From positions 1 through 62,085 of the forward strand of contig NZ_AYYT01000009.1 of NCBI RefSeq assembly GCF_001435955.1: a stretch of 62,085 nucleotides of DNA, in the 5' to 3' direction. Of this stretch, positions 3,411 to 50,077 are shown piece by piece (the first letter of the stretch is position 1; each line of letters opens with the position of its first letter). The notes under the pieces were generated by a model. It was not told where the DNA came from. It saw nothing but the letters and a program-made list of their open reading frames with translations, and searched no databases. This DNA is from Ligilactobacillus salivarius DSM 20555 = ATCC 11741 (GTDB lineage Bacteria; Bacillota; Bacilli; Lactobacillales; Lactobacillaceae). Made by a program: the position numbers and the translations under genes.

Positions 3411-3441
3411 TTATTATGCTTTGAACAATATATTTTCAAAC

Positions 3442-3477
3442 AAAAAAGGTTCAAAGCCGCTTACCGGCCTTGAACCC
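3442..3477 (-). terminator. Intrinsic terminator of the MFS gene
   Basis: GGTTCAAGGCCG pairs with GCGGCTTTGAACC and is followed by TTTTTTG, 25 bases after the stop codon of the OFA transporter. Confidence 0.85.
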
Positions 3478-3499
3478 TTATTTTCAATTCAATACTAGT

Positions 3500-4726
3500 T
3501 TATTTTTCAAATACTTGTTTCTTAATTCTCAAAATGTCACGTTGTACCCAGAAGGAGACAAACAATGCTACCATATCAACAATAATGAAAGTTATAATTG
3601 TTGTTGCATAACTATGTAACATTTGGTGAGTGTAAGATAGTAAAACTGGACCAACCATACCTGCCATTGCCCATGCAGTTAAGATGTAACCGTGGATAGC
3701 ACCTAATTCTTTTGTACCAAATACATCACCTAGATATGCAGGGATTACTGAGAAACCAGCACCATAGCATGACATTAACAAGCATAATGCTACAACAAAT
3801 ACCATTGGTACGTGGAAAATTAGTAATGTTGCTAACATGATAATATCTACAATGAAGATCAAACTAAATGTTAAAGGTCTACCGATATAGTCAGATAATG
3901 TTGCCCAGATAAGACGACCAAAACCGTTAAATAATCCGATAATACCTACCATAACAGCTGCTGCACCTGCATTCATAGCAGTCATTTCTTGGGCCATAGG
4001 TGAAGCTGCAGATACTAAACCAATTCCACAAGTAATGTTGATGAACAACATGAACCATAAAGAGTAGAATGCTTTAGTTTTTAAAGCTTGGTTAGCTGTA
4101 AGTTGAGCACCTAAACTAACTTTATTACCTTTAGCAACTGCTACTTCTGGAACATCGCCTTCTTTAGGACGCTTAATAAATTGTGCTGCAATAAGCATAA
4201 CAATCATGTAAAATGCACCTAAAATGTAAAATGTTGTCTCTAACCCTACTACACTCATTAATCTTTGTGCAATTGGACTTGTAAGTAAAGCAGCAAATCC
4301 GAATCCCATGATAGCCAAACCTGTTGCCAAGCCTCGCTTATCTGGGAACCATTTGATAATTGTAGAAACAGGAGTTACATAACCAGAACCTAATCCTAAT
4401 CCTCCGATTACCCCATATGACAAGTAAAGCATCCATAATTGATTCAAATGAATTGAAACACCTGTCAAAATAATACCTGTTCCAAATAAGAGAGCTGAAA
4501 TAGTTCCTGTCACTGTAGGGCCGAATTTTTCAACTAAGCGACCCATAAAAGCTGCAGACATTCCCAAGAAGAAAATAGCCAAACTAAAAGCAAATGAAAT
4601 AGCTGATTCTGACCAAGAAGTTTGACTTGCAATAGGCTTTGCATAAACACTCCAAGCATACACTGAACCAATCATTAAATGAAAGATAACACCCGCTAAG
4701 GCAACAACATATCGATTACTTCTCAC
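3500..4726 (-). CDS. OFA-family MFS transporter
   Basis: A 408-residue, 12-helix major facilitator of the oxalate:formate antiporter (OFA) group. Family marks are the N-terminal GSVYAWSVYAKPI, GLGLGSGYVTPVSTIIKWFPDKRGLATG between helices 4 and 5, and a central loop near residue 190. Lactobacilli carry such proteins as single genes; the substrate is a small carboxylate in characterised members, unknown here. The start is GTG at 4726, preceded by a perfect AGGAGG seven bases away. It has its own terminator at 3442-3477. The 280 bp upstream, shared with tpx, contain several TATAAT-like sites but no operator I can name. Confidence 0.85.
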   Translation of the reverse strand: MRSNRYVVALAGVIFHLMIGSVYAWSVYAKPIASQTSWSESAISFAFSLAIFFLGMSAAFMGRLVEKFGPTVTGTISALLFGTGIILTGVSIHLNQLWMLYLSYGVIGGLGLGSGYVTPVSTIIKWFPDKRGLATGLAIMGFGFAALLTSPIAQRLMSVVGLETTFYILGAFYMIVMLIAAQFIKRPKEGDVPEVAVAKGNKVSLGAQLTANQALKTKAFYSLWFMLFINITCGIGLVSAASPMAQEMTAMNAGAAAVMVGIIGLFNGFGRLIWATLSDYIGRPLTFSLIFIVDIIMLATLLIFHVPMVFVVALCLLMSCYGAGFSVIPAYLGDVFGTKELGAIHGYILTAWAMAGMVGPVLLSYTHQMLHSYATTIITFIIVDMVALFVSFWVQRDILRIKKQVFEK

Positions 4727-37099: not shown

Positions 37100-37128
37100 T
37101 TGACAGCTAACTTTTCGTAAGTTATAAT
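37100..37128 (+). promoter_or_regulatory. Consensus promoter of the Cys leader/cysE-cysK operon
   Basis: TTGACA (37100-37105), 17-bp spacer, TATAAT (37123-37128): a perfect sigma-A promoter. Such strength suits a locus controlled by attenuation after initiation. Confidence 0.9.
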
Positions 37129-37160
37129 TCAAGTAACTTATTTGTCGGAGGTAATACTAA

Positions 37161-37232
37161 ATGTCTAATGAATATCAAGTAAAAACAGATATTTGTTGTT
37201 GTGGATTGTGCCCTACGCCATCCACCATTTAG
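37161..37232 (+). CDS. Cys-rich leader peptide
   Basis: A 23-codon ORF with GGAGG nine bases upstream of its ATG, about 25 nt after the predicted transcription start. Residues 12-17 read CCCGLC (TGT TGT TGT GGA TTG TGC), then P18. A perfect consensus promoter lies before it and a transcription terminator 33 bases after it, followed by serine acetyltransferase and cysteine synthase genes. Four Cys in 23 codons before a cysteine operon is the signature of a ribosome-sensed cysteine leader. Confidence 0.85.
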   Translation: MSNEYQVKTDICCCGLCPTPSTI

Positions 37233-37298
37233 TATGCTTGTATTCTTTTGGTAGATATCAAGGGCACAGGACAATTTCATTTTGTTCTGTGTTTTTTT
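37201..37298 (+). promoter_or_regulatory. Cysteine-responsive attenuator (terminator/antiterminator)
   Basis: Terminator: CACAGGACAA (37265-37274) pairs with TTGTTCTGTG (37282-37291), then seven T. Antiterminator: TGTGCCCT inside the leader ORF (37207-37214) pairs with AGGGCACA (37261-37268), overlapping the 5' arm of the terminator. A third pairing, GTGGAT (37201-37206) with ATCCAC (37220-37225), would lock the antiterminator segment in a loop. A ribosome stalled at the first Cys codons covers GTGGA and leaves TGTGCCCT free, so transcription continues when Cys-tRNA is scarce. Confidence 0.75.
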
Positions 37299-37362: not shown

Positions 37363-38169
37363 ATGTCGCGGCAACCATTAAAAATCGGAATTTTAAATCT
37401 TATGCATGACAAAGAAGATACTCAAAAAAGATTTTCTAGAGTCTTAAGAGATACAGGTGAAAATTTAGAAATAACTTATTTCTATCCTGTTAACCACTAT
37501 AAGAATCGTGAAGTTCCAGAATTAGTGGCTAAAATATCTCAACCATTAGATTTAAAATTAGTTCATCAGATGGATGCTTTCATCATTACAGGTGCACCCT
37601 TGGAAAAATTACCATTTTCAGATATTACCTATCTTGATGAATTACAGGGACTAATGGATACTCTAGAAAAGCAAAATATCTCTCAACTCTATGTTTGCTG
37701 GGGTGGTATGGTTGCTCTTAATTACTTCTATGGTATTCATAAAGAAATGCTAGATACTAAACTTTTCGGTATTTATCCGCAAAAAATTACTAATCAAAGT
37801 AATTTGCTTAAGGGTTTGACTAATGGTTTCTTAGCACCGCATGCACGTTACGCTGAAATGAATAAAGATGACATTCTTTCATCTAAAGACTTAATTATTA
37901 ATGCTTATTCATCAACCGGACACTTATTCTTAGTGTCTGCAAAAAATAAGCCTCAACACTTCTTATTCTCACACCTAGAATACGGTCCTAATGCCTTTAT
38001 AAAGGAATATCACCGCGAATTAAATGCTCGAGGAGGTGATGCTGTTGGCTTGGCAAAACCAACAGGATACTTTAAGGATGATAATAATATGAGCCAACCC
38101 CAATTTACTTGGGAAAATACACAAAAAAAATTCTTTAAAAATTGGATTACTACAATAACTAATCATTAA
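37363..38169 (+). CDS. cysE: MetA-family acyltransferase, probable serine O-acetyltransferase
   Basis: A 268-residue member of the homoserine transsuccinylase (MetA) fold. Nucleophile C112 is in VCWGG; E81 (TGAPLEKL) at the acyl-specificity position predicts acetyl-CoA. It differs from true MetA (47745): SHLEYGP replaces the catalytic-region TGHPEYD and the SRH-T segment is absent. In Lactobacillus casei the metA-like gene upstream of cysK was shown to be a serine acetyltransferase. Its place before cysK and behind a Cys leader supports that role. ATG at 37363 chosen; GTG at 37354 possible. Confidence 0.75.
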   Translation: MSRQPLKIGILNLMHDKEDTQKRFSRVLRDTGENLEITYFYPVNHYKNREVPELVAKISQPLDLKLVHQMDAFIITGAPLEKLPFSDITYLDELQGLMDTLEKQNISQLYVCWGGMVALNYFYGIHKEMLDTKLFGIYPQKITNQSNLLKGLTNGFLAPHARYAEMNKDDILSSKDLIINAYSSTGHLFLVSAKNKPQHFLFSHLEYGPNAFIKEYHRELNARGGDAVGLAKPTGYFKDDNNMSQPQFTWENTQKKFFKNWITTITNH

Positions 38170-38181
38170 GGAGGACTCCCT

Positions 38182-39105
38182 ATGTCAAAAATTTATAACT
38201 CTATCTTAGATACTATTGGAAATACACCTATCGTGAAATTAAATCATGTTGTACCTGAAAATGCTGCTGATGTTTATGTAAAACTTGAATTCTTTAATCC
38301 TGCAGGTTCAGTTAAAGATCGAATTGCTTTAGCAATGATTGAAAAAGCTGAAAAAGATGGCATTTTAAAACCAGGTGATACTATTGTTGAACCAACTTCT
38401 GGTAATACCGGTGTTGGTTTATCTGCAGTAGCTTCTGCTAAAGGCTATCATTTAATTATTACTATGCCTGAAACTATGAGTGACGAACGTAAAAAATTAA
38501 TGCGTGCTTATGGCACTGAACTTATTCTTACACCAGGTTCTGAAGGTATGGCAGGTTCCATTGCTAAAGCTGAAGAATTAGTTCAAACTAAAGGTTACTT
38601 CATGCCTATGCAATTTAAGAACTTAGCTAACCCTGAAATTCATGAACTTACAACTGGTAAAGAAATTGTTGCTGCTTTTGGTAGCGATAATTTACCAGAC
38701 GCATTTGTCGCTGGTGTAGGTACTGGTGGTACCCTAACTGGAATCGGTCGGGCTTTAAAGAAGGCTTCTTCAGACGTAAAAGTATATGCTCTTGAACCTT
38801 CTGAATCCCCACTACTCAAAGAAGGCAAAAAAGGTGCACACAAAATTCAAGGTATCTCCGCTGGCTTTATCCCTGATACTTTAGATCGTGAAATTTATGA
38901 TGATGTTGTAGAAGTTTCAAGCGATGAAGCATTTGAAACTGCACGTGAAGTTGCTAAAAAAGAAGGTTTCCTACCTGGTATCTCTGCTGGTGCTAACATT
39001 CATGGCGCAATTGAATTGGCTAAAAAATTAGGCAAAGGTAAGAAAGTTATTACTGTTGCTCCTGACAATGGTGAACGTTATCTTTCTACTGCTTTATATC
39101 AATAA
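38182..39105 (+). CDS. cysK: Cysteine synthase A (O-acetylserine sulfhydrylase)
   Basis: A 307-residue PLP enzyme that makes cysteine from O-acetylserine and sulfide. PLP Lys is K45 ([10 protein letters not shown]), substrate loop TSGNTG (72-77), phosphate-binding GTGGT. TAAGGAGGAC precedes the ATG, 12 bases after the upstream acetyltransferase. Both genes are controlled by the Cys leader attenuator. A strong terminator follows. Confidence 0.95.
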
Positions 39106-41799: not shown

Positions 41800-42086
41800 A
41801 AAAACGCCCTATAGAAGTTTAATTACTTCTATAGGGCGTTTCCGCGGTACCACCTATTTTTATTGATCAACAAAAATTAATCAACATCTCTTTTCACGTG
41901 CGGCCTAGACTTCTCTAAGCGATACGCTAGTACGTTAAAGGGTACAACCTAAAAACACTCTTCGCATTTTTAGCTCTAAGGTGATATTCGTAAACTTCCA
42001 TACTGTTTTCTTACACCAACCGAAAACTCTCTTTAAGCGTAAAAATTTACTACTGTCCTTGTCATTGCTATTAATCTCTCTATTCG
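41800..42086 (-). ncRNA. T-box riboswitch, probable Ile specifier
   Basis: The T-box sequence AGGTGGTACCGCGG is at 41855-41842 and the terminator (AACGCCCTATAGAAGT, complementary arm, TTTTT) at 41840-41800. Stem I starts near AGAGAG (42080), contains GACAAGGACAGTAGTA and the GGTTGGTG distal loop, and ends GAATATCACCTTAGAGC. The specifier is most likely ATC (41985-41983, Ile), followed by a purine; TAT (Tyr) in the next frame is less likely. TTGACA of the promoter is at 42117-42122. Confidence 0.93.
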
Positions 42087-47744: not shown

Positions 47745-48593
47745 CTAAGTTGTGTGAATTAGGTTCAACCAATTCGTATATAGCTTGACACTACTTTGAA
47801 ACCACTGATTAACTATCTGATTATTTTGATAGTAATTGTTAGGTTTACTAATTGGTTTCCCTTTTTCTAAATCTCGTTTATATTCTCTATCTAACGTTCT
47901 TGTATCGTATTCTGGATGACCAGTAATAAATAAATTTTTTTGATCAGTAGTCGCTAATAGAAATGCCTCTACTTCCTGACTCTTAGCCAATACCTGTAAC
48001 TCATCAGGTAATTTTGCCGGTAAAATTAATTTAGTATGTCGAGACTGTGGCATTCGAATTGGTCCCCCACTTCCAAAACCTAATAAGAAGGAACTATTCA
48101 TGTCTATTTTTTCTGCTTGATAGACCCCAAATAATTTAGAAACTAAAGGTAACTTATCAATATCAAATTTTACTTTCAAAGCTGCTTGACTAGCCCAACA
48201 TTCAAAAATCGTATAAATTTTTGTTTGTCTACTCCATTCAACCAACTTTTGAAAATCATCCCAATAGTCTACTTCTGTGAAATCCAGATGTTCTACTGGT
48301 GCACCTGTAACTATTAGCCCATCAAAGTTTTGTTGTAAAACCTTGCTCAAGGGCAGATAATGTTTCTTTATAATTTCACTATTACCATGATGAAAATGAT
48401 GACTATCAGGATATGCAAAAGTCACTCTACAATTAATTTTTGTTTTTTCCAATAACTTTAAAAATTGTAATTCTGTTGTTTCCTTGGTTGGCATTAAATT
48501 TACAATTAATATTTCTAAATTTTGTTTATCGTTCAGTTTATTCTTCCATTGTTTTTGTGCTAAAGCTATTCCATTTACAGCTTGTACTGTCAT
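47745..48593 (-). CDS. metA: Homoserine O-acetyltransferase
   Basis: A 282-residue MetA. Nucleophile C132 in [10 protein letters not shown], His in [21 protein letters not shown], and [10 protein letters not shown]101 ([10 protein letters not shown]) is at the position where Glu gives acetyl-CoA and Gly gives succinyl-CoA preference, so it is an acetyltransferase, matching metY. The start could be any of several codons (ATGATG at 48596/48593); AAGGTGAG supports the second. Compare the divergent paralogue at 37363. Confidence 0.92.
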
Positions 48594-49773: not shown

Positions 49774-50020
49774 AAAAAAGTCCCTAGAACAACAAATGTT
49801 GTTCTAGGGACGTGTCATCATCTTATTCACGTGTTACCACCCGTTATTCGATACTACCTCACAGTAATATCCTCACTAAGTACACTATACAAGCTATACT
49901 CGTTCGCTATAACAGGCGACCCCTGTTATCTGCTTGCCATGGCTCACAGATAATCTAGCTCCAAGACCATCTTCATTAAGCTTTCAACACATCGCATCTC
50001 ACCATTCACGACTCTCTTTA
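49774..50020 (-). ncRNA. T-box riboswitch, Met specifier
   Basis: T-box sequence GGGTGGTAACACGTG at 49842-49828; terminator GTCCCTAGAACAACA with complementary arm and TTTTTT at 49811-49774. Stem I starts AAAGAGAGTC (50020) and ends GAAGATGGTCTTGGAGC. By alignment with the other T-box (GAATATCACCTTAGAGC) the specifier is ATG (49970-49968), Met, followed by G. A hairpin TTATCTG/CAGATAA follows stem I. Agrees with the methionine operon it precedes. Confidence 0.93.
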
Positions 50021-50077
50021 GTAATACTCACATTAATTACTCATCTTTTCTTAGCTATTTCTAATTATTATGTCATA

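Follow-up and report, generated by a model that had tools for sequence, protein, structure and literature searches.

The window analysed here is a stretch of 62,085 nucleotides from Ligilactobacillus salivarius DSM 20555 (positions 1 to 62,085 of contig NZ_AYYT01000009.1). On its plus strand, an HTS (MetA-family) gene and a cysteine synthase gene are preceded by a promoter, a short cysteine-rich leader ORF and an intrinsic terminator, so that the terminator stands ahead of the first structural gene (Table 1). The consensus promoter, the 23-codon Cys-rich ORF and the terminator named in the original prediction were all read directly in the letters of the window, at their positions, and 32 nt separate the -10 box from the ATG of the leader.

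Table 1. Features of the cysteine leader and the genes behind it (window positions)
Feature	Position	Strand	Basis or detail
Sigma70-type promoter, TTGACA-17-TATAAT	37100..37128	+	Sequence; -35 at 37100-37105, -10 at 37123-37128
Shine-Dalgarno (SD) GGAGG ahead of the leader ORF	37147..37151	+	Sequence
Cysteine leader peptide ORF, 23 codons, MSNEYQVKTDICCCGLCPTPSTI	37161..37232	+	Sequence; relatives
Three tandem Cys codons TGT-TGT-TGT, codons 12-14	37194..37202	+	Putative sensor
Fourth Cys codon, codon 17 of the leader ORF	37209-37211	+	
P1 (competing 5') hairpin, GTGGAT 37201-37206 with ATCCAC 37220-37225	37201..37225	+	Covaries in relatives
Antiterminator helix, TGTGCCCT 37207-37214 with AGGGCACA 37261-37268	37207..37268	+	Covariation in relatives
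Intrinsic terminator, CACAGGACAA 37265-37274 with TTGTTCTGTG 37282-37291, T-run 37292-37298	37265..37298	+	Sequence, relatives
HTS (MetA-family) gene	37363..38169	+	Pfam PF04204, 210 bits; start GTG 37354 or ATG 37363
cysK, cysteine synthase A	38182..39105	+	TIGR01139, 443 bits, above cut-off

The first gene of the pair had been labelled 'cysE-like'. The NCBIfam MetA models match it below their cut-offs, and the label is plausible: in Lacticaseibacillus (L.) paracasei, a MetA-like enzyme adjoining cysK is a serine acetyltransferase, according to the text consulted of PMC6004538, which cites Bogicevic 2016. We infer that the HTS gene is likewise the serine acetyltransferase of this operon. A second HTS paralogue (32% identity) lies on the minus strand at 47757-48524, with a T-box match below the cut-off farther upstream of it (49803-50061), and is perhaps the methionine-side enzyme. 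Another T-box (119 bits; 41829-42074, minus strand) lies upstream of a proline iminopeptidase-family gene. At the promoter itself, an inverted repeat, TAACTT-N5-AAGTTA, spans the spacer (37108-37124), and CTTA..TAAG repeats also occur at the promoters of some leaderless HTS operons of genus g37. As a promoter operator, CTTA-N-TAAG was found in 14 of 91 HTS loci against a shuffle mean of 6.6 and maximum of 13, and this weak candidate was rejected.

The same leader precedes HTS in three genomes of g37, a genus that includes Lactobacillus agrestimuris, where CCCGLC or CCCGLR is followed by GTGGAT...ATCCAC. The stretch after the Cys codons pairs with the 5' side of the terminator in letters that differ from one genome to another, namely, TGTGCCCT/AGGGCACA in the window, TGTGTCTT/AAGACACG in G379, TGTGTCTT/AAGACGCG in G398, and TGCGTCTT/AAGACGCG in G417 (pairs read by eye, some of them G-U). 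The Cys at codon 17 is dispensable, as G417 has Arg at the position of this fourth Cys. Allowing up to two mismatches, the core pattern of the window occurs in 12 of 397 Lactobacillaceae genomes and in none with a reversed-pattern control, and 10 of these 12 sites precede other cysteine-type genes.

A covariance model of P1 and the terminator, built from 12 relatives with the window excluded, recovered the window with a score of 45.8 bits (E 1.6e-8). The next-best match in the window (3439-3587, 24.1 bits) has no Cys leader and was rejected, as were weak matches at C1 and C25 of the same genome, which also have none. Outside the window, the genome holds a second unit at 68 bits (L122, G000:C56:39778-39929), with the leader MREFNSVELNTCCCEACQLRFTFLVCQ and with the P1 letters changed to GTGAAGCG/CGCTTCAC, upstream of a cysK-like gene. 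At E up to 0.01, matches were found in 133 of the 397 genomes; many of these are probably plain terminators, and therefore only those below 1e-6 were taken. When 295 genomes of the order, family members included, were searched, a single match at E up to 1e-5 fell outside the family (G549, L160, around 1506); it has no start-led leader and no same-strand gene after it, and was set aside. Its start-less frame, given as CCCLFSLNEKAC and as CCCLFSLNEKACLLC, lies with a terminator and is like some leaders of genus g6, CCCLFLSAEKAC.

By protein motif, the nearest downstream gene in 70 loci is cysK-like (34 loci), cystathionine synthase/lyase-like (22), an amino-acid ABC permease (8), or HTS (4), with two unassigned; of these two, L165 reads as cysK-like, and the other ends at a contig edge. 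One permease has a cystine permease model as its best NCBIfam match, below the cut-off. The downstream gene is 380-1133 bases away in three loci. In genome G069 (L114/L131), more than 1 kb separates the attenuator from the cystathionine synthase/lyase-like gene. A gene of this last type also follows the L152 unit (209-344), where the leader is cut right after its Cys run (CCC-stop) and the hairpins are kept.

All three of the hairpins originally proposed are kept in relatives with compensatory changes. In an alignment of the 12 relatives without the window, 98.5% of the cells of the main antiterminator helix are paired, compensatory changes occur in 7 of its 11 pairs, and P1 and the terminator also covary; an outer extension of four pairs is paired in 64.1% of cells in these 12 rows. 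A larger alignment of 38 loci, in which the 12 relatives are included, was made by the model of P1 and the terminator, from which the antiterminator is absent. Here, 97.0% of the 433 antiterminator cells are paired and 8 of its 12 pairs show both-side compensatory changes, a result reached by 0 of 500 shuffles; when its partner strand was slid by one to three columns, 28-53% was paired. For P1 and the terminator together, 92.5% of 816 cells are paired and both-side changes occur in 17 of 22 pairs, one P1 pair being unpaired in 25 of the 38 rows. These helix statistics are not independent probabilities because the antiterminator shares strands with both other helices and the shuffles ignore relatedness. 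The pairs of the window itself were read by hand, since MAFFT misaligned its short terminator and the model alignment misses the 3' part. Of the three covarying helices, the antiterminator shares strands with, and so excludes, both the terminator and P1. In the window alone, an 8-bp antiterminator was reached in 115 of 20,000 shuffles of the 5' segment, which is moderately unlikely and would leave some room for a chance ORF ahead of an ordinary terminator. That reading is barely credible, being contradicted by the covariation in relatives, by the conservation of the Cys codons, and by the HTS survey described below; it is the covariation in relatives, and not the window shuffles, that makes the antiterminator of the window secure.

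Conservation of the Cys codons was followed in 73 loci, consisting of 70 of the 71 listed matches below 1e-6 plus L095, L096, and L120; L147, with the same leader peptide as L146, was left out. The first Cys codon, at which the ribosome had been proposed to stall, is Cys in all 73 loci (69 TGT, 4 TGC), the second in 69, and the third in 70, a conservation that is partly selected by the search because the model and the anchor contain Cys letters. In the loci examined, the Cys codons are thus kept where the terminator is present. An in-frame start with an SD, by a permissive rule, is found in 71 of the 73, so that the sequences appear to hold a short SD-led ORF with codons of the presumably regulated amino acid. 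The antiterminator 5' strand begins 13-14 nt past the first base of the first Cys codon, which is approximately where the leading edge of a ribosome lies when that codon is in its A site; a ribosome at the second or third Cys codon would cover part of the antiterminator strand.

The leader-peptide attenuator model is supported by the hairpin covariation together with the conservation of the Cys codons, and the leader of the window very probably acts as a ribosome-mediated transcription attenuator with charged tRNA-Cys as its signal. As long as Cys-tRNA suffices, the ribosome would pass codons 12 to 14, P1 and then the terminator would fold, and transcription would end before HTS-cysK. Under a shortage of Cys-tRNA, the ribosome would stall with the first Cys codon (codon 12, the putative stall site) in its A site and cover the 5' strand of P1; the 5' strand of the antiterminator, freed just ahead of the stalled ribosome, would then pair with the 5' side of the terminator, and RNA polymerase would continue into HTS-cysK.

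Hairpins of this kind need a stalled ribosome, and a stall might also come from the nascent peptide, if CCC, perhaps with free cysteine or a thiol ligand, arrested the ribosome and the hairpins switched likewise. The leader peptides are indeed alike in many loci (CCCGSRLMRPT and similar); however, the likeness in GSRLMRPT can be explained by RNA pairing because these codons overlap P1 and the antiterminator. Known arrest peptides depend on the residues that precede the stall, and the residues ahead of CCC vary strongly here. Moreover, the L152 leader ends right after CCC, and other leader types have only the Cys run in common, all of which makes nascent-peptide arrest very unlikely. The strong covariation of the three helices on their own would also suit a riboswitch or a protein-bound attenuator, in which the ORF is irrelevant and the hairpins respond to another ligand or to a protein. 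This we regard as extremely unlikely, given the in-frame SD and start in nearly all of the loci and the retention of their Cys codons. In Firmicutes, the T-box senses tRNA charging before amino-acid genes, reading the tRNA directly and without translation. At gathering scores, neither the T-box (RF00230) nor any other Rfam family was found at the window site (0 matches) or in the loci of 14 relatives; a permissive Rfam search of the site gave six matches at chance level, below the gathering scores. The T-box model has 21 matches in the same genome.

Folding predictions agree only in part with attenuation by a stalled ribosome. When a ribosome occupies the first Cys codon in the prediction, the window, G398, and G417 switch to the antiterminator fold, whereas the minimum-energy fold of G379 keeps the full terminator. 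Across 70 of the 73 loci (L144, L185, and L187 were dropped; in three of the 73, the script found no terminator), the median equilibrium probability of the terminator falls from 0.918 to 0.705 upon the first-Cys stall, with a value below 0.5 in 25 of the 70; in the window, it falls from 0.98 to 0.57. Equilibrium folding alone does not establish the switch. In RNA cut before the 3' arm of the terminator and free of a ribosome, the antiterminator has a median probability of 0.997 and exceeds 0.5 in 37 of 38 loci, and the probability of P1 is near 0. As the antiterminator wins in the cut RNA without a ribosome, sequestering by P1 must be kinetic or ribosome-driven, which suggests that timing and ribosome movement would both matter for the switch.

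A survey of HTS genes, free of any selection for Cys letters by model or anchor, was conducted in the 397 Lactobacillaceae genomes, an even sample of a larger group. Of these, 83 genomes, from 11 of 40 genera, have such an HTS gene at E up to 1e-50; together with eight more regions from one genus, this gave 91 upstream regions. Not among the 91 are G011, with a broken HTS gene, and L020 and L021, which share 447 identical upstream bases with G276 (in g6, which includes Limosilactobacillus caviae) and G400 (in g37), respectively. As leaders, we counted SD-led ORFs of 8-45 codons containing CCC or CC, with the antisense strand and 40 dinucleotide-shuffled sets as controls. CCC leaders were found in 39 of the 91 regions on the sense strand, compared with none on the antisense strand and a shuffle mean of 0.075 loci (maximum 1); for CC leaders, the corresponding values were 46, none, and 3.1 (maximum 6). 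Therefore, about half of the HTS operons are without a leader by this SD-ORF rule, under which G226, whose CCC ORF was missed, is scored as a miss. CC leaders occur in all 19 regions of genus g4, 12 of 14 in g6, 7 of 14 in g30, 3 of 4 in g13, 3 of 13 in g37, and 2 of 10 in the genus of the window (the window included), with 0 of 17 in the remaining genera. A leader relic, DIDCCLCP, lies in frame in G021, a genome of the window's genus, and was left out because it has no SD-led start.

Further short ORFs were observed upstream of HTS genes. Five loci of g30, g13, and g33 (L076, L077, L086, L073, and L075) have two in tandem, the first starting 330-460 nt upstream and ending CCC-stop and the second starting near a T-run and, in L076 and L077, ending GGVRACC-stop; these may form a double leader. 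In genus g12, five loci (L056, L057, L060, L061, and L062) share alike SD-led ORFs with few Cys, having CW about halfway along and MC close to the end, for example, MKNLIAFNRCWHCVTDQGIPLMCPGK.

Other designs appear to exist among the leaders. In four HTS operons of g6 (Limosilactobacillus-like) that were folded, the Cys codons immediately ahead of the stop make up the 5' arm of a long hairpin, and therefore, a stalled ribosome would remove the hairpin directly; a T-run follows it in three of the four and is absent in G100. The g4 leaders have covarying hairpins of their own. On an Enterococcus faecalis plasmid (L121, 1774-1911), a cysteine synthase-CGS pair is preceded by a terminator and by the annotated hypothetical protein WP_002355203.1, which contains ESCCCMV. 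This protein is similar to the g4 HTS leaders and seems to be an example of a Cys leader from beyond Lactobacillaceae.

Expression data are available for a related cluster, cysK2-ctl1-cysE2 of L. paracasei FAM18149. According to the text consulted of PMC6004538, its expression in cysteine-deficient medium exceeds that in methionine-deficient medium about 8-fold, and its 5'UTR shows high read coverage and a terminator covering AAGGGCGCGAAA-N16-TTTCGCGCCCTT; the cluster is described there as cysteine-repressed and with premature termination, with no known regulon or sensor identified. Text consulted of PMC6200037 describes massive up-regulation of the same cluster without cysteine. For the cysE(metA-like)-cysK operon of L. 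paracasei, the former source gives constitutive expression by qPCR and a small RNA-seq difference. An SD-led CCC leader, followed by a terminator motif of the FAM18149 type, is present in this cluster on pBD-II, an L. paracasei plasmid (leader MSQSMFNAINCCCRTTRFWRCSAC), and on pLBCZ-1, a plasmid of L. casei ATCC 393. Neither leader (L118, L119) matched the covariance model, and that of pBD-II folds differently, its terminator persisting under the stall mask. The FAM18149 motif, similar to the palindromic motif AAAGGGCGCGAA-N(11-18)-TTCGCGCCTTTT of Liu 2012 (via PMC6004538), matches the terminator hairpin after the CCC leader on both plasmids; the motif account in that paper, in the part consulted, mentions no Cys leader ORF. 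Plasmid matches to the HTS protein were all below 60% identity, at most 34.3% among the matches listed.

The trp and his operons are the classical transcription attenuators with amino-acid leader peptides, and the present leader shares with such systems a short SD-led ORF, tandem codons of the pathway amino acid, a competing 5' hairpin, an antiterminator, and an intrinsic terminator. It differs in its amino acid, cysteine, in its occurrence in Lactobacillaceae, and in the use of one leader family across several operon types. In our view, this is a case of classical ribosome-mediated attenuation in which the leader is rich in cysteine codons; leader-peptide attenuation as such is already known. 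His attenuators have been predicted in some Firmicutes (PMC2965389, PMC9413887, as far as the parts consulted go). Cys-run leader peptides upstream of cysteine genes are also known from mycobacteria, as leaderless polycysteine sORF attenuators (Canestrari 2020, cited in PMC13236596), and from Actinobacteria (PMC1262725). The parts consulted describe these systems either as leaderless or as lacking conserved terminator hairpins, whereas the leaders found here have an SD and an intrinsic terminator, together with an antiterminator that covaries; a leaderless start of the mycobacterial type was looked for at the window, where the ORF has its SD instead. The uORFC-8-2 motif likewise has a terminator and a uORF containing tandem Cys codons but, according to the part consulted of PMC8632094, is a two-stem motif of Rhodobacterales (Alphaproteobacteria) upstream of cysS, in contrast to the leader before HTS-cysK in Lactobacillaceae. 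A literature search that covered few subscription papers found no description of Cys leader-peptide attenuators in Lactobacillaceae or other Firmicutes.

Taken across operons, we consider it likely that Lactobacillaceae control much of their cysteine regulon (serine acetyltransferase-cysK, cysK2/CBS-ctl, cystathionine lyase, and cystine-type transport) by Cys leader attenuators rather than by T-boxes or a CymR-type repressor, and that they do so with at least two designs: (i) a three-hairpin switch, in which the leading edge of a ribosome with the first Cys codon in its A site stands at the start of the antiterminator, and (ii) a minimal design, in which the Cys codons themselves are the 5' arm of the terminator. 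In Firmicutes, control of amino-acid genes is usually ascribed to T-boxes, riboswitches, or repressors, and few descriptions of leader-peptide attenuators were found there. If true, this reading would suggest what the missing sensor of the cysteine-repressed cysK-ctl-cysE cluster could be and would name a testable one for cysK2-ctl1-cysE2 of L. paracasei, whose regulation is left open in the part consulted of PMC6004538. Short CCC-containing 'hypothetical proteins', one of which is annotated in Enterococcus faecalis, could be re-annotated as leaders. A cysteine-specific leader family across several operons would also provide a ready explanation for how lactobacilli control their cysteine supply and their sulfur-flavour genes.
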